Positions 7,853 through 46,166 of a DNA stretch of 64,000 bases are shown here, piece by piece (position 1 is the stretch's first letter; every line of letters begins with the position of its first letter). The stretch comes from Longimicrobium sp. GTDB lineage: Bacteria > Gemmatimonadota > Gemmatimonadetes > Longimicrobiales > Longimicrobiaceae. The notes below the pieces were generated by a model that made no database searches, had not been told where the DNA came from, and was given only the letters and a program-made list of their open reading frames with translations. Position numbers and translations under genes: made by a program. The stretch lies in contig DASUYB010000014.1 of assembly GCA_036377595.1 (NCBI GenBank), positions 1 through 64,000 of the forward strand, in the 5' to 3' direction.

Positions 7853-8596
7853 ATGTCCATCGAGACCGAGCAGGACCTGGAGGGGATGAAGCGCGTGGGG
7901 CGCATCGTGCGCATCTGCATCGAGCGGATGAAGCGCGCGGTGCGGCCGGGGGTGACCACCGCCGAGCTCGACCGCATCGGGGGGCAGGCGCTGCGCGAGC
8001 ACGGCGCCCGCTCCGCGCCCAAGCTGGTCTACGGCTTCCCCGCGGACATGCTGATCAGCGTGAACGACCAGGCGGTGCACGGCATCCCCGGCGCGCGCAG
8101 GCTGCGCGACGGCGACCTGGTGAAGCTGGACGTGACGGTGGAGAAGGACGGCTACATGGCCGACGCCGCCGTCACCGTCCCCGTGGGCCGCGTCCCCGAG
8201 GAGCGCCGCGCGCTGGTCGCCGCCGCCCGCGCCGCGTTCGAGAAGGCGATGGAGGTGGCGACGGTGGGGAACCCGGTCAACGCCATCGGCCGCGCGGTGG
8301 AGGGCGAGGTGAAGCGCCGCGGCTTCAACGTGGCGCGCGACCTGGCGGGGCACGGGATCGGGCGGACGATCCACGAGGCGCCGAGCGTGCCCAACCACTA
8401 CGACGCGCGCCTGCGCCAGCCGCTCACCGAGGGGCTGGTGATCGCCGTGGAGCCGATCGTCACCGAGCGCTCGGGGCGCACGGTGGAGGACGCGGACGGG
8501 TGGACGGTGCGCACGGCGGACGGCGGCTTCACCGCGCACTACGAGCACACCATCGTCATCACCCGCGGCCGCCCGCTCCTGCTGACCGCCGCCTGA
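7853..8596 (+). CDS. map: Type I methionine aminopeptidase
   Basis: Removes the initiator methionine from new proteins. The 247-residue protein (start ATG at 7853) has all the metal ligands and catalytic residues of the family: H76 in VNDQAVHGIP, D93 in VKLDVTV, D104 in GYMADAAV, H167 in AGHGIGR, H174 in IHEAP, E200 in AVEPIV and E231 in HYEHTIV. Length is normal for a bacterial type I enzyme. The frame is open further upstream through a repeat, but homology begins here. It is followed after two bases by two small membrane proteins, probably in one operon. Cytoplasmic; usually essential when it is the only copy. Confidence 0.95.
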   Translation: MSIETEQDLEGMKRVGRIVRICIERMKRAVRPGVTTAELDRIGGQALREHGARSAPKLVYGFPADMLISVNDQAVHGIPGARRLRDGDLVKLDVTVEKDGYMADAAVTVPVGRVPEERRALVAAARAAFEKAMEVATVGNPVNAIGRAVEGEVKRRGFNVARDLAGHGIGRTIHEAPSVPNHYDARLRQPLTEGLVIAVEPIVTERSGRTVEDADGWTVRTADGGFTAHYEHTIVITRGRPLLLTAA

Positions 8597-12695: not shown

Positions 12696-13099
12696 GCGCG
12701 AGCATGGCCGCCGGGACTTCGCTCACGCTCCGCGAGCGCGTCCTCTACCACCAGGTGCACCCGCTCAAGCTGCTGGTGGACTGGGGAACGGCGGCGGCGG
12801 CGCTGGTCCTGCTCTGGCGCGGCCGGCTCGTCCCGGCGTTGGTGGTGATGCTGGTTCCGCCCGCGCTCGCCTCCGTGCTGCTCGTCCGCTTCGGCCGCTT
12901 CGACGGCGTCCGGCGCTCCCGGCTCGGCGCGTACCTGCGGCGCTGGATGACCCCGCACGCGCAGGTCGTGCGGCTGGTGGGGATGGCGATCGCCGCGGTG
13001 GGCGCCTGGGTGCACGCACCCATGCTGGTGGCGGGCGGAGCCGCGCTGATCGTGCTCGTCTGGACGCGCGGCCTCCTCCTCCGCGCCGGCAGGCGGTGA
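12692..13099 (+). CDS. Four-helix membrane protein, unknown
   Basis: A 135-residue protein starting at the GTG that overlaps the ATPase stop (GTGA); an ATG at 12704 is the alternative. Four hydrophobic helices in two pairs (LLVDWGTAAAALVLLW, LVPALVVMLVPPALASVLLV, and VVRLVGMAIAAVGAWV, PMLVAGGAALIVLVWT) are separated by an Arg-rich loop. It overlaps the next gene by another GTGA. I recognise no family. Tight overlaps on both sides put it in one transcript with the ATPase and the acetyltransferase. Confidence 0.7.
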   Translation: MSASMAAGTSLTLRERVLYHQVHPLKLLVDWGTAAAALVLLWRGRLVPALVVMLVPPALASVLLVRFGRFDGVRRSRLGAYLRRWMTPHAQVVRLVGMAIAAVGAWVHAPMLVAGGAALIVLVWTRGLLLRAGRR

Positions 13100-14010
13100 G
13101 CGCCGCATCCATCCGCCCGTTCCAGCCGCGCGACGCGGATGCGGCCGCCGCGCTGATCGCCGCCGAGTGGCCGCACCGCGCGGACGAGGCGGAGCAGCTC
13201 CGGCGCGGCGAGCTCCATCCCGACGCGCGGCGCTGGGCCGCCGCCGACCCGTCCGGCGGCGGCCTCGTCGCCTATGCGGCGCTCTGGCGCGTGCGCGACC
13301 GGCGTTTCCGCATCGACCTGGACGTCGCGCCGGCGTGGCGGCGGCGGGGGATCGGCGGGGCGATGCTGGAGACGGCGGTCGCCGCCGCGGCGGAAGACGG
13401 CGCGGCGACGGTGCAGGCGCGCGCCTACGCCGGGGCGGCGGACGCGCTCCGCTTCCTCGCGCGCCGCGGCTTCGCGGAGACGATGCGGATGTTCGGCCTC
13501 GCGCTCGACGTTCGCGCGATCGATCCGCTGCGGCTGGCGGCGTACGAGCAGGCGGCCGCCGCGCAGGGATTCGCGCTCACCACGCTGGCGGCCGAGGAGC
13601 GGCGCAATCCCCACTCCCTGCGTGACTTGTGGGAGGTCTACGCCGCCGCGCAGGAGGGGTGGCGCGATCCCGATCCGCCGCCCGTCCCCGATCCGCCGAT
13701 GACGTTCGAGGCGTTCCTGCGGCGCATGGACGAGTTCCCCACGGACCCGGACGCCTTCTTCATCGCCATCCACGGAGAACGATACGCCGGGCTGACGGGC
13801 TCGATCGGCACCGCCGTCCACCCCGCCTACCGCGGGCGCGGCGTGGCGAACGCGCTGAAGGCGCGAGCCGCGCTGCACGCCCGCACCACGGGACGGGGGA
13901 CGATGGAGACGTGCACCGGCAACCCGGCGATGCTGCGCGCCAACGAGAACGTCGGCTTCCGCCGCACCTGGACCGAGGTGCGGCTGGTGCGCCGGGTCTC
14001 CGCGCCCTGA
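13096..14010 (+). CDS. Tandem-domain GNAT acetyltransferase
   Basis: 304 residues starting at the overlapping GTG. The first GNAT domain shows the acetyl-CoA loop in VAPAWRRRGIGGAM (about residues 77-90). The second, after a linker at about 150-200, has VHPAYRGRGVANALKARA (about 237-254) and the family ending TGNPAMLRANENVGFR. Both pyrophosphate-binding loops (R-x-x-G-x-[GA]) appear intact, which is typical of two-domain GNATs; the acceptor is unknown. It ends 19 bases from the last peptide of the convergent RiPP-like array. Confidence 0.8.
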   Translation: MSAASIRPFQPRDADAAAALIAAEWPHRADEAEQLRRGELHPDARRWAAADPSGGGLVAYAALWRVRDRRFRIDLDVAPAWRRRGIGGAMLETAVAAAAEDGAATVQARAYAGAADALRFLARRGFAETMRMFGLALDVRAIDPLRLAAYEQAAAAQGFALTTLAAEERRNPHSLRDLWEVYAAAQEGWRDPDPPPVPDPPMTFEAFLRRMDEFPTDPDAFFIAIHGERYAGLTGSIGTAVHPAYRGRGVANALKARAALHARTTGRGTMETCTGNPAMLRANENVGFRRTWTEVRLVRRVSAP

Positions 14011-14029: not shown

Positions 14030-14269
14030 TCAATCGAGGCAGATGGGCTTCGCGCCGGTCCAGCCGCAGACGTCGCAGCTGTCTTCGCAGGTGTACGCGC
14101 AGGTGTCGTATTCCTCGCCGCAGGTGGCGCAGGTGACCACGACGTAGGTGGGGCCGGTGCAGTGGTCGTTGCCCGTGTTGTAGAACTCGCCCGCGGGCGC
14201 GTCCTCGTCCGGGCGCACCGTGAACGACTCCACCTGCAGGTCGTCGGGCTGAAGCCGGATTCCTGGCAT
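14030..14269 (-). CDS. Cys-rich RiPP-like precursor peptide 1 (last in array)
   Basis: 79 residues. The leader is MPGIRLQPDDLQVESFTV, a variant lacking the usual MRK. The core carries nine Cys in CATCGEEYDTC, CEDSC and CGW arrangements, many Thr, and ends ICLD. Start ATG at 14269 has AGGA upstream. It is the most divergent member and the 3'-most gene of the array. Confidence 0.75.
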   Translation of the reverse strand: MPGIRLQPDDLQVESFTVRPDEDAPAGEFYNTGNDHCTGPTYVVVTCATCGEEYDTCAYTCEDSCDVCGWTGAKPICLD

Positions 14270-14316
14270 CGGTATGTCCTCGCGCGAATGGTGAAGGGTG
14301 ATCGAAGGGGCCGCGC

Positions 14317-14565
14317 TCACCCGCAGGGGTCGAACGCGCTCTCGCCGCAGCCGCAGCTGCCGCAGACGTTGGGGGTGAGCCAGCAGGTGCCGCCGCACGA
14401 CAGGATGTTGCAGCTGAACACGTTGGGGTCGGCGGTCTCGGGCGGCGGGCCGCACGGGTCGAACGAGCCGTGCGCGCGCACGGTGCCGGCGATCTCCGTC
14501 GCTTCGGCGCGGGTGTCGAACGTCTCCACCTCGAGCGCTTCGAGCTCCAGCCGCAGCTTGCGCAT
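14317..14565 (-). CDS. Cys-rich RiPP-like precursor peptide 2
   Basis: 82 residues. Leader MRKLRLELEALEVETFDT, then IAGTVRAHG, then a core with nine Cys. The phrase FDPCG occurs near the core start and again at the C-terminus, with CGSCGCG between. A GGAGG site lies five bases before the ATG. It is 69 bases downstream of peptide 3. Confidence 0.8.
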   Translation of the reverse strand: MRKLRLELEALEVETFDTRAEATEIAGTVRAHGSFDPCGPPPETADPNVFSCNILSCGGTCWLTPNVCGSCGCGESAFDPCG

Positions 14566-14634
14566 GATCTCCTCCGGCTCCTGGGTGATGCGACGGCGCC
14601 GCCGCCCGGGAGCGGACGACGGCGCCGGGGCGAA

Positions 14635-14877
14635 TCAGTTGATGCAGGTCGGATCGTTGCCCGTGAGGAAGCACGCGTTGATGCACGAGTTTCCGCACGT
14701 GTACCAGTGGTAGTCCGTCTCCATGCAGTACTGGCTGGCCGGCTCGGAGCACGCCTGCCACGGGTCGAAGGTGACGTACGACTGCGCGCGCACGGTACCC
14801 TTAGGCGCGTTGTCCTGCTTCTGCGCGGCGAACGAGTCTACGCGCAGGGTGTCGGGGTCCAGCTTCAGCTTGCGCAT
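14635..14877 (-). CDS. Cys-rich RiPP-like precursor peptide 3
   Basis: 80 residues. Leader MRKLKLDPDTLRVDSFAA, GTVRAQ junction, then a core rich in aromatic residues (YVTFDPWQAC, METDYHWYTC) with six Cys, ending PTCIN. A strong AGGGAGG site precedes the ATG. Confidence 0.8.
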   Translation of the reverse strand: MRKLKLDPDTLRVDSFAAQKQDNAPKGTVRAQSYVTFDPWQACSEPASQYCMETDYHWYTCGNSCINACFLTGNDPTCIN

Positions 14878-14944
14878 CCGGCCTCCCTGGTGGAATGAGA
14901 AGCGGACAGGGTGCCCGCGGGAAGGCGGGCACCCGCCGCATGCT

Positions 14945-15151
14945 TCAGGCGGTGGTGTCGAAGGTGCACCGGTGCGGGCAGCTCAGGATCTGGGTGCAGT
15001 CGCAGTTGGTCTCGCACGTCGCGGCGCACGTGTTCCCGCAGTACGTGGGCGGCGTCGCATGCGCGTGCACCGTCCCCTCGCAGGCCGCATGGACCTCGAC
15101 CGCGAACGACTCCACGCGCAGGGCGTCCGCCTCCAGCTTCAGCTTGCGCAT
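14945..15151 (-). CDS. Cys-rich RiPP-like precursor peptide 4
   Basis: 68 residues. Leader MRKLKLEADALRVESFAV, then EGTVHAHA, then a core with CGNTCAATCETNCDCT and CPHRC. It shares CETNCDCT with peptides 6 and 7, defining one core subfamily. AGGAG site before the ATG. Confidence 0.8.
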   Translation of the reverse strand: MRKLKLEADALRVESFAVEVHAACEGTVHAHATPPTYCGNTCAATCETNCDCTQILSCPHRCTFDTTA

Positions 15152-15176
15152 CTTCGCTCCTGAGAAAGGCGAGGTT

Positions 15177-15362
15177 TCAGCACGGGTAGGGGCCGGTGCA
15201 ATTGGCCACGCAGGCCGAGTTGCAGTTGCTGTTCTGGCACGAGAGGCCGAATGTCACCCGCTTCATATCGTGGCCGTGCACCGTGCCCGCGTCGGCGAGG
15301 GCGGCCTCGGCCGCGAACGACTCCACGCGCAGGTGGTCGAGATCGAGCTTCAGCTTGCGCAT
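15177..15362 (-). CDS. Cys-rich RiPP-like precursor peptide 5
   Basis: 61 residues. Leader MRKLKLDLDHLRVESFAA, DAGTVHGH junction, core LSCQNSNCNSACVANC ending PYPC, with five Cys spaced 4-6 residues apart. AGGAG site before the ATG. Confidence 0.8.
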   Translation of the reverse strand: MRKLKLDLDHLRVESFAAEAALADAGTVHGHDMKRVTFGLSCQNSNCNSACVANCTGPYPC

Positions 15363-15394
15363 CCTGGCTCCTGGAAAATGGGTGAAGAAAGGGT

Positions 15395-15613
15395 TCAGAG
15401 GGTGGTGGTGGTGCACAGCTCCGTCAGGCACGGCGCGATGCTCGGGCACCCGAGCGTGCAGTCGCAGTTCGTCTCGCAGAAGGTCATCGCCGTGGCGGGA
15501 GGACAGTTGCGCGTCGGGGCGTGCGCGGCGACGGTGCCACGCGCGTCCGGCGCCTCGTCGCTGACGAACGAGTCCACGCGCAGGGTGTCGGCATCCAGCT
15601 TCAGCTTTCGCAT
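15395..15613 (-). CDS. Cys-rich RiPP-like precursor peptide 6
   Basis: 72 residues. Leader MRKLKLDADTLRVDSFVS, then RGTVAAHA, core containing FCETNCDCTLGC and a Thr-rich tail ending CTTTTL. Very close to peptide 7 in both leader and core, so a recent duplication. AGGAG site before the ATG. Confidence 0.8.
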   Translation of the reverse strand: MRKLKLDADTLRVDSFVSDEAPDARGTVAAHAPTRNCPPATAMTFCETNCDCTLGCPSIAPCLTELCTTTTL

Positions 15614-15649
15614 CTGGGCTCCTTGGAAGGATGGGGAATCGCCGCCCGG

Positions 15650-15853
15650 TCAGCTGGTGGTGCACGGCACGGTGTTGCATCCCAGCGTGCAGTCGCAGTT
15701 GGTCTCGCAGAACGTCATCCCGGTGGCCGGGCAGGTGGGGTTGCGCGTGGCCAGCGCGTGCGCGGCCACGGTGCCGCGCGCGTCCGCCGCATCGTCGCTC
15801 GCGGCGAACGATTCCACGCGCAGGATGTCGGGATTCAGCTTCAGCTTTCGCAT
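15650..15853 (-). CDS. Cys-rich RiPP-like precursor peptide 7
   Basis: 67 residues. Leader MRKLKLNPDILRVESFAA, then RGTVAAHA, core FCETNCDCTLGC then NTVPCTTS. Near-duplicate of peptide 6. The next upstream array position (15897-15947) holds only the last codons of a sister gene. GGGGA site before the ATG. Confidence 0.8.
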   Translation of the reverse strand: MRKLKLNPDILRVESFAASDDAADARGTVAAHALATRNPTCPATGMTFCETNCDCTLGCNTVPCTTS

Positions 15854-15896
15854 CTTCCCCTCGTTTCTCGATTTGGCGTGAGTGGAGGCGCTCCGC

Positions 15897-15947
15897 TCAG
15901 TGGATGGTGCATTGGGGAATGCTGGCGGCGCAGCCGAGCGTGCAGTC
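15897..15947 (-). pseudogene. Stump of a tenth precursor peptide
   Basis: Read on the minus strand these bases encode DCTLGCAASIPQCTIH and a stop. This matches the DCTLGC...PC... ends of peptides 6 and 7. Immediately upstream (beyond 15947) the similarity stops, so leader and first half of the core are deleted. It lies 43 bases upstream of peptide 7. Confidence 0.65.
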
Positions 15948-15966
15948 TCTGTGGTCCTGTCTCCCC

Positions 15967-16158
15967 CTAGCAGATGCAGGCGCTGTCGATCGTCTGGCAG
16001 AAGCAGGCGGCGGGACCGCTGCAGCTGCCGTCGCCGGTGCACGGGCGCGGTACGACGGAGACCGCCTGCCCCTGCACGGTGCCGCGCGCCAGGGACGTGC
16101 CCTCGACAGCGAACGACTCGACGCGCAGGTTGCCGAGGTCCAGCTGGATCTTGCGCAT
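15967..16158 (-). CDS. Cys-rich RiPP-like precursor peptide 8
   Basis: 63 residues. Leader MRKIQLDLGNLRVESFAV, ARGTVQGQ junction, core with CTGDGSCSGPAACFC and terminal ACIC. It forms a second core subfamily with peptide 9 (leader MRKIQL, core CxGxxxCSGxxACxC). AGGA site before the ATG. Confidence 0.8.
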   Translation of the reverse strand: MRKIQLDLGNLRVESFAVEGTSLARGTVQGQAVSVVPRPCTGDGSCSGPAACFCQTIDSACIC

Positions 16159-16227
16159 GGGATGGTTCCTTTGCGGAGAAGGGTGAAAACGCGGAGCCCG
16201 GCGCCGCCGCCGGGCTCCGCCCATGGC

Positions 16228-16428
16228 TCAACAGTTCTTCACCGAGTCGCAGATGCAGGCCACGTCGCCGCTGCAGCTGTCGGTGCCGGTGCAGACGTCG
16301 GTGTACTGGCAGCAGATCCCGGTGACGGTCCATTCCTGCCCTTCCACCGTCCCGCGCCCCTTCCCCGCGCCGTCGACGGTGAAGGACTCGACCTGCAGCT
16401 CGTTGAGATCCAGCTGGATCTTCCGCAT
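16228..16428 (-). CDS. Cys-rich RiPP-like precursor peptide 9 (first in array)
   Basis: 66 residues. Leader MRKIQLDLNELQVESFTV, GRGTVEGQ junction, core ICCQYTDVCTGTDSCSGDVACIC with the C-terminus KNC. GGAGA site six bases before the ATG. It is the promoter-proximal gene; the 178 bases to the divergent permease gene should hold the promoter of the array, but no convincing -35/-10 pair stands out. Confidence 0.8.
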   Translation of the reverse strand: MRKIQLDLNELQVESFTVDGAGKGRGTVEGQEWTVTGICCQYTDVCTGTDSCSGDVACICDSVKNC

Positions 16429-16606: not shown

Positions 16607-18277
16607 ATGGCTGAGCCTCTCCGCCGCCGCGCGGGCGGGACGGCGCTGCTGGCCGCCGCGGTGGCGGTCGTGCTGCTCTGGCTGGTGCTGTATCCCAACC
16701 TGTTCGTGCTGGGCGACAGCCTCCTGGACCACGGGCGGGTGACCGCGGCGCACTACGCGCGCTTCTTCGGCAGCGCGTCGGAGCTGCGGGCGCTGTGGAA
16801 CAGCGTGTGGATCTCCCTGGCCAGCGTGGTCCTCTCCGCGCTGGTGGGCGTGCCGCTGGCCTTCCTCTTCGCGCGGCGCGACTTCCCCGGGCGGCGGGTG
16901 CTGGGCGGGCTGGCTGCGATGCCGGTGCTGCTGCCGCCGCTGGTGGGCACCATCTCCTTCCTCTTCCTCTACGGCGAGACGGGGTTCCTGACGCGAGGCG
17001 TGCAGGCGGCGCTGGGGCTGGCCGAGCCGCCGTGGCGGCTGGACGGCGCGTGGGCCGTGCTGCTGGTGCACGCGTACACCATGTACGTCTACTTCTACCT
17101 CTTCGTCAGCGCGGGATTGGCGCGGCTGGACGCGGGCTACGCCGAGGCCGCGGCCGCGCTGGGCGCCGGGGGGTGGACCACGCTGCGCCGCGTGACGCTG
17201 CCGATGCTGGCGCCCGCGCTGGGCGGCGCGTCGCTGCTGGTGTTCATGACCTCGATGGCGTCGTTCAGCGCGCCGTACGTGTTCGGCGGCGGCTTCCGCG
17301 TGCTGACCACGCAGCTCTACGCGACGAAGCTGAACGGCGACGCCGGCCTGGTCGCCGTCGAGGCGGTGGTGCTGGCGCTGGTCTCGCTCGCCTTCCTCGT
17401 CCCCCTGCAGCGGTACGAGGCGGCGCGCGACTACACCGGCGCGTCCAAGGGCCTCGCCGTCGCGCCGCCGGCGGAGTCGGGGCGCGGATGGGTGATGACG
17501 CTGGCCGCGGCGGCGTTCGTCGGCTTCCTGCTGCTGCCGCACCTGACCGTGCTGCTGGTCTCCTTCGTCCCCGAGGGCACCTGGACCACGCAGGCGCTGC
17601 CGCCCGTCTACTCCGCCGAGCCCTACCGGCGGATGTTCAGCGACGCCGAGACGCTGCGCCCCGTGCTCAACTCGCTGCGCATGGCCACGGTGGCAACGCT
17701 GGCGAACGTCGCGTTCGCGTTCGCCGCCGCCTACCTGCTGGCGCGGACGCGGGTGCGGGGGAAGGGGCTCGTCTCCGCGCTGGTGGCGCTCCCATGGGCG
17801 CTGCCGGGAACGGTGCTGGCCATCGCGCTGGCGTCGACCTTCAGCGTGAACCGGCCGCTGGCGGGGCGATTCGTGCTGGTGGGAACCTTCGCGATCCTGC
17901 CGCTGGCGTACTTCATCCGCAACATCCCGCTGGTCACGCGCGCGGCGCTGTCGTCGTTCCGCCAGCTCGACCCGTCGCTCGAGGAGGCGGCCGCGTCGCT
18001 CGGCGCCGGCCCCGCGACGGCGATGCGGCGCGTGGTGCTGCCGCTGGTGCTGCCGGGGCTGATGGCGGGGGCGCTGCTGGCGTTCGTCAACGCGCTGGGC
18101 GAGTTCGTCGCGTCGATCCTGCTCTACACCAACCGCACGCGCCCCATCAGCATGGAGATGCTGTCGCAGCTGCGCGCCTTCGACTTCGGCGGCGCCTCGG
18201 CGTACGGCGTGCTGCTGATCATCCTCGTCGCCCTCGTCTTCGCCACCGGGTATCGGAATGTGGTGGAGGGGAGATAA
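16607..18277 (+). CDS. Fe3+-type ABC transporter permease, two fused permease domains
   Basis: 556 residues with about 12 transmembrane helices in two homologous halves, the FbpB/ThiP plan. Each half has an ABC permease EAA loop: YAEAAAALGAGGWTTLRRVTLP near residue 180 and LEEAAASLGAGPATAMRRVVLP near residue 463. I choose the ATG at 16607 because GGAGG lies 5 bases upstream; the ATG at 16595 overlaps that site. It should complete the transporter with the binding protein (9533) and ATPase (11610). It is separated from the ATPase gene by 3.9 kb containing a small membrane protein, a GNAT enzyme and the opposite-strand peptide array, so it needs its own promoter. Confidence 0.9.
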   Translation: MAEPLRRRAGGTALLAAAVAVVLLWLVLYPNLFVLGDSLLDHGRVTAAHYARFFGSASELRALWNSVWISLASVVLSALVGVPLAFLFARRDFPGRRVLGGLAAMPVLLPPLVGTISFLFLYGETGFLTRGVQAALGLAEPPWRLDGAWAVLLVHAYTMYVYFYLFVSAGLARLDAGYAEAAAALGAGGWTTLRRVTLPMLAPALGGASLLVFMTSMASFSAPYVFGGGFRVLTTQLYATKLNGDAGLVAVEAVVLALVSLAFLVPLQRYEAARDYTGASKGLAVAPPAESGRGWVMTLAAAAFVGFLLLPHLTVLLVSFVPEGTWTTQALPPVYSAEPYRRMFSDAETLRPVLNSLRMATVATLANVAFAFAAAYLLARTRVRGKGLVSALVALPWALPGTVLAIALASTFSVNRPLAGRFVLVGTFAILPLAYFIRNIPLVTRAALSSFRQLDPSLEEAAASLGAGPATAMRRVVLPLVLPGLMAGALLAFVNALGEFVASILLYTNRTRPISMEMLSQLRAFDFGGASAYGVLLIILVALVFATGYRNVVEGR

Positions 18278-43798: not shown

Positions 43799-44315
43799 CG
43801 GGAATCCCTCGCGTTCGCGGTCGAAATCGTCGTTGGAACGGGCAAGCGGACGGATGCATGCTACGCGCCGCCGGCGGCGGAGGCAACGCTGATCCCCGTC
43901 TCCACGAACTCGCGGGAGATGGAGGAGAACTGCGACCAAGATCGGTGTCAGCGCGGTCCGGAGGCGCGCGAATTGTCGGAAAGATGCCGATCCGGCGACA
44001 AGACTCTGGCGCAGGGCGGAGAAGCGGACTATCATGCGCGCCGTTCAACCGCACAATCCGTCGTCCGGACGCCACGCACCCGCGGCAACCCGCGTGCGCC
44101 TCCGAACCTCGCGTACCCCCGGCAGAGGAGAACCGCGCCCCGTTCGGTCCCACCCAGCAGTACCGGGATTCCATCGCAGTCGCCCCCGGCGCCACCCGAC
44201 CGGGACTCCACGACAACGGCAAACCCGGCGAAAGCCGGCGACGCAAAGTTACGAGCCTACCGCGGGGCGCCCGCCGCACGCCCGGCCACGGCAGTCGAGC
44301 CGCCGATAGAGTACC
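43799..44315. other. Gap with no supported gene
   Basis: 517 bases between divergent genes (dienelactone hydrolase and M23 peptidase). No open frame with recognisable content, no repeat family member and no clear promoter consensus seen. It should contain both promoters. Confidence 0.5.
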
Positions 44316-44912
44316 ATGGCCATGCCACGAACCACCCGGAAGTACCCCGCACTGCGCACCGTCGTGCTCGCCGCGGCCGCCCTGGCGCTGGCCGCCGCCC
44401 CCGCCGCCGCCCAGCGGATGGCGATGCTGGCGTCGTTCCCGATCCCGCCGCGCAACCCCGCGCGCGACATCGTGGACCTGCTGCGCTCGCGCAACCTGCT
44501 GATCCCCGTCGAGGGGGTCGGCGCGGGGCAGCTGCACGACACGTTCAACGCCGCGCGCTCCGGCGGCCGCGTGCACGACGCCATCGACATCCACGCGCCG
44601 CGCGGCACGCACGTGCTGGCGACCACCGACGGCACCATCATCAAGCTGCATCACAGCGCGCTGGGCGGCATCACCGTCTACCAGCTCGACGACGACGGCC
44701 GCACGCGCTACTACTACGCGCACCTCGACCGCTACGCCGACGGCATCGCCGAGGGCGTGCGCGTCACGCGCGGGCAGACGATCGGATACGTGGGCGACAC
44801 GGGGAACGCGGCCCCCGGCGACTGCCACCTGCACTTCGCCATCGCCATCCTGAGCGACACCTCGCGCTGGTGGAGCGGCCGCAACGTCAACCCGTTCGAG
44901 GTCTGGAGATAG
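44316..44912 (+). CDS. Exported M23 (LytM) family metallopeptidase
   Basis: 198 residues from the ATG at 44316 (or 44322). Signal peptide TVVLAAAALALAAAPAAAQ. The M23 zinc motifs are there: GGRVHDAIDIHAPRGTHVLA (H-x3-D, about residues 86-105) and GDCHLHFAIAI (H-x-H, about 168-178), with YYYAHLDRYADGIAEGVRV between. One small catalytic domain with no SH3 or LysM attachment. Such enzymes cut peptide cross-links of peptidoglycan. Zinc ligands appear complete, so it is likely active. A strong terminator follows. Confidence 0.88.
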   Translation: MAMPRTTRKYPALRTVVLAAAALALAAAPAAAQRMAMLASFPIPPRNPARDIVDLLRSRNLLIPVEGVGAGQLHDTFNAARSGGRVHDAIDIHAPRGTHVLATTDGTIIKLHHSALGGITVYQLDDDGRTRYYYAHLDRYADGIAEGVRVTRGQTIGYVGDTGNAAPGDCHLHFAIAILSDTSRWWSGRNVNPFEVWR

Positions 44913-45089: not shown

Positions 45090-46166
45090 CTACGCTGTCG
45101 CCAGGACGGGAAGCGCCTCGCCGCGGAAGATCTCGGGGACGCCGTCGAGCGGATCTTCCTCGATTGGCTCGCCGTCGGGGGATTCGAGGACGAAGCCCAT
45201 GTCGCGGATCATCTCCAGGTCGGCGCGGGCGGCCTGTCCCGGCGTGGTCAGGTAGTCGCCGATGAAGATGGAGTTGGCGGCGTACAGCCCCATCACCTGC
45301 ATCGACCGCAGGTGCACCTCGCGCCCGCCGGAGATGCGGATCTCCTGCGACGGCAGCAGGAAGCGGTAGAGGCAGAGGATGCGCAGGCAGCGCCGCGGGT
45401 CGAGCTGGTCCACCCCCGCCAGCGGCGTCCCCACGATGGGGATCAGGAAGTTGACGGGAACACTGCGCACCTCCAGCTCGCGCAGCGACAACGCCAGGTC
45501 GATCACGTCGTCGTCCGTCTCGTTCATCCCCACGATCCCGCCGGAGCAGGTCTTGAGCCCCACCGCCTTCACCGCCTCGACCGTGGCCACGCGGTCGCCG
45601 AAGGTGTGGGTGGAGACGACGCTGGGCGTGTGGCGCTCCGACGTGTTCAGGTTGTGGTTCACCTGGGTGACGCCCGCCTCCTTCAGCCGCCGCGCCTGGT
45701 CCTCGGTCAGCAGCCCCAGGCAGGCGCACACCTTCAGGTCGTGCTTCTCGCGGACGGCGCGCACCGCGTCCAGCACCTTGGCGAACACCCGCTCGCCCGG
45801 CGTTCGCCCGCTGATGACCATGCAGAAGGTGCCCGCCTTCAGCTCCGCCGCGCGGTCGGCCGCCGCCAGGATCTTCTCGCGCGCCAGCATGGGATACTTC
45901 TCGATCTCCGCCGCGCTGATCTTCGACTGCGAGCAGTAGTTGCAGTCCTCGGGACAGAGGCCGCTCTGCGCGTTGCAGAGGAAGTGCAGCCGCACGCGGT
46001 TGCCGTAGAAGCGCCGCCGCACGCGGTACGCCGCGGCCAGCTGCTCCAGCAGCGCGGTGTCGGGCGCCGCCAGCACCGCGCGCGCCTCGTCGCGGGTGAT
46101 GAGCTCGCCCGCCAGCGCGCGGTCGGCCAGCGCGTTCCAGTCGGGCAGGGCGTTCGGATTCGCCAT
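45090..46166 (-). CDS. bioB: Biotin synthase
   Basis: Radical SAM enzyme that inserts sulphur into dethiobiotin, last step of biotin synthesis. 358 residues from the ATG at 46166 (AGGA upstream); a GTG nine bases earlier is possible. The radical SAM cluster is C71-P-E-D-C75-N-Y-C78 in [14 protein letters not shown]. The [2Fe-2S] cysteines are expected in [17 protein letters not shown] and [16 protein letters not shown], and the conserved Arg in [12 protein letters not shown] is present. Length and motif set are normal. No other bio genes are adjacent. Confidence 0.95.

Follow-up and report, generated by a model that had tools for sequence, protein, structure and literature searches.

The stretch of DNA considered here comprises 64,000 nucleotides of the genome of Longimicrobium sp., a member of the Longimicrobiaceae (contig DASUYB010000014.1), and is called the window in what follows. 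It opens contig C14, one of the 208 contigs of an assembly of 7.2 Mb whose contamination is estimated at 4.8%. At positions 14030-16428 of the window, nine intact open reading frames (ORFs) of 61-82 codons are found on the minus strand (Table 1), and gene calling based on codon usage chose exactly these nine. The encoded peptides have in common an N-terminal leader, M-R-K-L/I-x-L...L-x-V-E/D-S/T-F, with a G-T-V junction in eight of them, the gene at 14030-14269 being the exception. It will be argued that these genes very probably encode class I pinensin-like lanthipeptide precursors (LanA), and that they would represent one array of a library of more than 200 members processed by enzymes encoded on another contig, C103.

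A preliminary description of the array, made from the window sequence alone, had recognized the nine genes, their leader and the junction present in most of them, and these points hold. Some of its details have to be amended. The intergenic gaps measure 47, 69, 67, 25, 32, 36, 113 and 69 bases, so that one of them lies outside the range of 25-69 bases first given, and the number of cysteines per peptide is 5-8 instead of 5-9. The cores had been said to diverge completely, but genes 15395 and 15650 have in common, within their cores, a 54-nucleotide stretch that is 87% identical. A ribosome site had been attributed to each gene; a plausible Shine-Dalgarno sequence is seen at most of the nine starts. 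As to the surroundings, the absence of maturation enzymes holds for LanB and LanC, which do not occur on the contig of the window. It does not extend to peptidases, since a Pfam scan of part of the window genes identified an M24 aminopeptidase gene, housekeeping in type, at 7853-8596. The radical SAM gene bioB is indeed present, at 45090-46166. None of the nine peptides has a Pfam match, and no Rfam RNA element was found near the array. The NCBIfam model leader_pinensin weakly matches three of the nine.

Table 1. Precursor genes of the array and genes flanking it (positions in the window; HMM, hidden Markov model of the leader; RBH, reciprocal best hit in the relative G011)
Feature	Position	Strand	Description and evidence
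Precursor gene 1	16228..16428	-	66 aa, 7 Cys; leader MRKIQLDLNELQVESF...GTV; first in transcription order; leader HMM
Precursor gene 2	15967..16158	-	63 aa, 6 Cys; leader HMM E=1.9e-11
Precursor gene 3	15650..15853	-	67 aa, 6 Cys; leader HMM E=7.8e-17
Precursor gene 4	15395..15613	-	72 aa, 7 Cys; leader HMM E=3.2e-15; RBH L149:8436-8639
Precursor gene 5	15177..15362	-	61 aa, 5 Cys; leader HMM E=2.2e-16; leader_pinensin 17.5 bits (best of the nine), cut-off 24
Precursor gene 6	14945..15151	-	68 aa, 8 Cys; leader HMM E=2.6e-14; RBH L149:8188-8394
Precursor gene 7	14635..14877	-	80 aa, 6 Cys; leader HMM E=1.8e-14; RBH L149:7439-7678
Precursor gene 8	14317..14565	-	82 aa, 8 Cys; leader HMM E=1.2e-13
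Precursor gene 9	14030..14269	-	79 aa, 8 Cys; degenerate leader start MPGIRL, without GTV; leader HMM E=7.7e-8
GNAT acetyltransferase gene	13096..14010	+	left flank of array; Pfam, synteny
ABC transporter permease gene	16607..18277	+	right flank of array; Pfam BPD_transp_1, synteny

The same leader is found at many other places in the genome. A query with a single peptide gave 149 matches. A leader profile was built and the regions around these matches, amounting to 1.26 Mb of targeted DNA, were searched with it, which yielded 208 leader-peptide ORFs at E < 1e-3. A nearly empty gap separates the true matches (E < 2e-4) from noise and the reversed DNA of the same 1.26 Mb gave no match. Thus, the matches are not due to chance. 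In 309 kb not chosen for matches, there were no more than three peptides, all borderline and of another kind; a further 360 kb, also not chosen for matches, contained two leader peptides, one of them borderline, and two more regions taken for known matches contained three. For the leader motif singled out in the preliminary description, the observed total is therefore 213 genes (208 plus 5, one borderline) in about 2 Mb examined. By extrapolation, the whole genome likely has about 225. The 208 genes are distributed over 96 loci. At 59 of these a gene stands alone, and the others are tandem arrays, the longest with 13 members, mostly on one strand. It may be imagined that such a count reflects the assembly, mixed strains or contamination, given the number of contigs and the contamination estimate of this draft genome. 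This explanation is very improbable because all 208 sequences are distinct and because three relatives hold 84 to at least 150 leader peptides, including a genome of 60 contigs with 1% contamination. Two further loci of the genome may be mentioned. On contig C83 (L228:9238-10072), two precursors with the same leader have extreme runs of cysteines (CCVCCCDPCCCTCC; CCCCCCPCCC), and contig C13 (L215:13606-15415) encodes a different type of peptide in three related versions (MTEKKRLDPEAIEVDSLEVEELDQVAGGETDVNQNCYSCTCPP), whose leader appears to be of the double-glycine kind.

The consensus of the leader is M-x-K-L-x-L-D-L-D-x-L-x-V-E-S-F, followed after 9-10 residues by G-T-V-x-[A/G]-[H/N/R/A] in about 80% of the peptides. 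Leader and core differ sharply in composition: cysteine represents 0.2% of the leader residues and 15.6% of the core residues, lysine 7.2% and 0.7%, respectively. The median core has 38 residues, with 6 Cys and 8 Ser or Thr, and a Ser or Thr precedes a Cys in every core having a recognizable GTV boundary. Such a composition is what a lanthipeptide core needs, yet it does not prove a lanthipeptide. The resemblance to pinensin leaders, first noticed on the window genes, is borne out at the genome level, even though the nine window genes themselves stay below the cut-off of the model: 45 out of 60 genome leaders match leader_pinensin at E<=1, with a best value of 1.7e-7, and at least one paralogue, at 25.2 bits, passes the cut-off of 24.

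In this genome, LanC-like genes are carried by contigs C103, C98 and C145, and LanB-like genes by contigs C103, C98 and C1. The locus on C103 (L043) contains, in this order, the glutamylation subunit (1075 aa) and the elimination subunit (343 aa) of a split LanB, a LanC of 704 aa and two precursors, then an unrelated stretch, eight precursors, an ABC exporter, an HlyD adaptor and an S8 protease. Its dehydratase domains, Lant_dehydr_N and Lant_dehydr_C, match PF04738 (141 bits) and PF14028 (146 bits). These enzymes are thus located beside ten precursors having the same leader, and not beside the window array. The window leaders are 53% identical to those of the ten C103 precursors, close to the 54% observed among the genome leaders themselves, whereas they are only 40% identical to the leaders of the C98 precursors (R-I/V-R-T-F). 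In view of these values, the C103 enzymes would be the natural partners of the orphan precursors. C103-type clusters with same-leader precursors recur in relatives. Those of G017 and G007 are complete, exporter and protease included, and those of other relatives are truncated at the ends of short contigs. Since it is LanB and LanC that accompany the same-leader precursors, a class II (ProcM-like) system and a radical-SAM system were both rejected. Contig C98 carries a second class I cluster, with its own split LanB, an ABC exporter and an S8-like protease; at L056:12825-13400, the core of its precursor shows a striking repeat (CSNCSGCTGCSNCSDCSNCSDC...) behind the leader RIRTF.

The C103 LanC deserves particular attention. 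It matches PF05147 (173 bits) and also the LanC domain of class II LanM (TIGR03897); the LanC of precursor family I 17, in the pinensin group, has been reported to be related to the LanM LanC domain (PMC7268733). The zinc ligands C331, C378 and H379 are invariant in eight LanC homologues, and the predicted structure of residues 26-468 gives Z scores of 20-28 with CuvL, LicM2, LanCL1 and the nisin cyclase. Residues 470-704, modelled alone with a mean pLDDT of 85, resemble TglI (8hci/8hi7; Z 13.1 over about 200 residues, identity of about 14%) and NGO1945 (Z 11.6), and the last 115 residues match leader-bound TbiB1 and PqqD with Z values of 6-7. TglI has an RRE (RiPP recognition element, where RiPP designates a ribosomally synthesized and post-translationally modified peptide) thought to bind the leader motif of its substrate (PMC9016710). 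As judged from the models, the C103 LanC probably carries its own leader-binding domain, TglI-like and with the RRE fold. Such a domain would help one enzyme to serve many scattered substrates. A contig search with the C103 LanC alone, made before aligned LanCs were used, gave no relatives. The aligned LanCs revealed relatives in Gemmatimonadota, Acidobacteria, Ignavibacteriales, Aminicenantes and Bacteroidota. The C-terminal extension also occurs beyond this lineage, since alignments to the LanCs of Chryseobacterium and Elizabethkingia reach residue 693.

The distribution of the peptides follows that of this LanC. Among 21 genomes of the family, in which C103-type LanC was counted at E below 1e-200, the eight bearing it have 11, 19 (in a genome 76% complete), 50, 80, 84, 148, at least 150 and at least 150 leader peptides, and the 13 others have 0-5 each. 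Such a split would occur by chance once in 203,490 if the genomes were independent; three genera are involved. In 395 genomes of the phylum, with 20 candidates per genome scored, none outside the family exceeds 1 leader peptide. Where a related LanC occurs in other lineages (Acidobacteria, Ignavibacteriales, Bacteroidota and others), each genome contains 0-8 leader peptides. The expansion is thus restricted to one family of the phylum. Predicted lanthipeptide clusters have been reported for Longimicrobium terrae, whose genome has 6.9 Mb and a GC content of 69.4% (PMC7291104).

These data bear on the nature of the peptides. The preliminary description had left a choice between enzymes acting in trans and peptides of another kind, and both the C103 cluster, with its ten same-leader precursors, and the co-occurrence of enzyme and peptides across the family speak for the former. 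In the alternative, the peptides would be unmodified, disulphide-rich or metal-binding, secreted and related only by an export signal. Their high cysteine content, with CxC, CC and CxxC spacings in some cores, would suit this idea, as does the circumstance that modification is deduced and not observed. Nevertheless, it is unlikely, because the same leader adjoins LanB, LanC, exporter and protease genes in this genome and in relatives, because the peptides are abundant only where a C103-type LanC is present, and because the cores are also rich in threonine, which is well kept between orthologs. Modification by other enzymes, for instance those of the C98 cluster or of one that was not looked for, would be a comparably improbable variant. 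C98 does possess a LanB, a LanC-like domain and precursors of its own, but its leaders are the more distant ones and it is the presence of the C103-type LanC that tracks the number of leader peptides.

Selection on the cores was examined using pairs of genes, one from this genome and one from the relative G011, that are reciprocal best hits of each other. Thirty-five of these ortholog pairs were usable, four of them involving window genes. Over these pairs, the ratio of nonsynonymous to synonymous substitution rates (dN/dS) is 0.57 in the leader, 0.49 in the spacer and 0.43 in the core. The cores are 75% identical. Their cysteines are conserved at 95%, as compared with 67% for all other residues, and threonine, at 79%, is the next-best kept of the frequent core residues. 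Some ortholog cores are identical despite drifted leaders; for window gene 3, whose partner is at L149:7956-8153, the end of the core (TNCDCTLGCNTVPCTTS) is identical. Paralogous cores, unlike orthologous ones, differ from each other. The low dN/dS of the cores, the retention of their cysteines and the existence of identical cores behind drifting leaders suggest that each product is maintained. This matters for the possibility that the majority of the orphans are relics left by duplication and without function, only the cluster-borne precursors being of use. The orphans are distant from the enzymes and many stand alone (59 of 96 loci), as relics might. However, all the copies are open reading frames with intact leaders, and the purifying selection just described includes four genes of the window array. 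Such an origin is thus improbable, slightly more so than the two preceding alternatives.

From these elements, a mechanism may be proposed. The bipartite leader, made of L-x-L...L-x-V-E-S-F and of the GTV junction 9-10 residues further on, would deliver each peptide to the C103 enzymes. The two subunits of the split LanB would dehydrate serines and threonines, by glutamylation and elimination, and LanC would close thioether rings with the core cysteines while gripping the leader through its C-terminal TglI-like domain. The subtilase adjacent to the exporter would cut off the leader near GTVx[A/G], and the ABC exporter with its HlyD adaptor would secrete the product. The products would probably serve as diversified secreted peptides for dealing with other microbes. 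In its full form, this proposal holds that a single LanB/LanC set, in which LanC itself bears a leader-binding domain, serves in trans over 200 precursors, each separately encoded and individually conserved; no larger natural library of lanthipeptides would be known from a single genome. We consider this rather likely, though with more reserve than the assignment of the nine genes.

Several observations weigh against this interpretation. All nine window genes are below the cut-off of NF038180 (leader_pinensin), reaching at most 17.5 bits, and should therefore be seen as relatives of this family and not as members. The counts rest on draft genomes, as illustrated by the present assembly. Picking the orthologs by similarity inflates the conservation of their cores. 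Co-occurrence ignores kinship, and shared ancestry makes the split between LanC-bearing and other genomes less striking. A k-mer enrichment analysis of 112 upstream regions found no convincing shared co-regulatory motif. Finally, with the LanB/LanC set of C98, a third LanC-like gene and a third LanB-like gene in the genome, a single enzyme set is not proven.

The site occupied by the array can be deduced from relatives. In G012, G013 and G016, all without a C103-type LanC, the GNAT and permease genes are adjacent, either overlapping or separated by 68-74 bp, with a gap of -4 to 75 bp overall; the array splits an ABC-transporter operon that is unbroken in these genomes. The close relative G011 has five precursors next to the syntenic permease gene, and in G014 and G017 one precursor is found in the same operon, at a different position. 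A repeat search around the array gave no terminal inverted repeats suggesting a mobile element at its ends, the repeats being mainly the leader coding sequences themselves. Since the flanking genes adjoin in the LanC-less relatives, the array occupies an intergenic site. Other peptide loci were noted in the same region of relatives. On contig C72 of G011 (L149:2890-3366), a few kb from the syntenic array, two peptides of another RiPP-like family (KPVKLDDIPTLELESN...NVQACYPNNCPP) adjoin genes for proteins of 478 and 391 aa. Downstream of the same ABC operon in G007 (L154:9968-14447), two short Cys-containing peptides beside genes for proteins of 927 and 361 aa look like a different RiPP locus. 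Elsewhere in the window, a c-di-GMP-I riboswitch aptamer (44208-44307, plus strand, 50.3 bits) is located just upstream of gene 44316-44912, which encodes a secreted-looking protein of 198 aa.

The system can be compared with three known ones. With the pinensin-type class I lanthipeptides (NF038180; family I 17, PMC7268733), it has in common the leader resemblance, the split LanB and the LanM-type LanC. It differs from them by more than 200 precursors per genome, mostly unclustered, by its occurrence outside Bacteroidota, by the GTVx[A/G] junction and by the sub-cut-off scores of the window genes. With prochlorosins and synechococsins (ProcA/SyncA with ProcM/SyncM, PMC10783134), it has in common a conserved leader with a hypervariable core, scattered single genes together with tandem arrays, and one tolerant enzyme thought to act in trans; the 96 loci, 59 of them single genes, facing one matching LanB/LanC set reproduce this trait. 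However, prochlorosins are made by a class II LanM from precursors that have a Nif11-type leader and are cleaved at a Gly-Gly site, whereas class I LanB and LanC and an ESF/GTV leader are found here, so that the system is not of the prochlorosin type. With TglI and NGO1945, the RRE-containing partner of an MNIO (multinuclear non-heme iron-dependent oxidase), the predicted likeness concerns the fold of the C-terminal domain of LanC, including its RRE-like part; here, this domain is fused to a LanC cyclase and the sequence identity is only about 14%. By its chemistry, as far as can be read from the genes, the system would belong with the pinensin-like class I lanthipeptides.

What is new is the scale, the class I chemistry and the lineage. 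The open-access literature searched yielded no description of this expansion. Enzyme-centred searches for gene clusters would miss most of these precursors. The conservation of their cores from one species to another suggests that each product matters, and the purpose of so many lanthipeptides becomes testable through the deletion of one enzyme gene. If the proposal is true, these peptides would also constitute natural substrates, available at once, with which the choice of ring patterns and the recognition of leaders could be studied. The highest counts of prochlorosin-type precursors per genome are 83 and 79 (PMC10783134), and the known substrate-tolerant synthetases with scattered substrates, ProcM and SyncM, are class II enzymes, with some 80 substrates at most. 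A class I pair of LanB and LanC with more than 200 natural substrates would then represent a second, independent solution.

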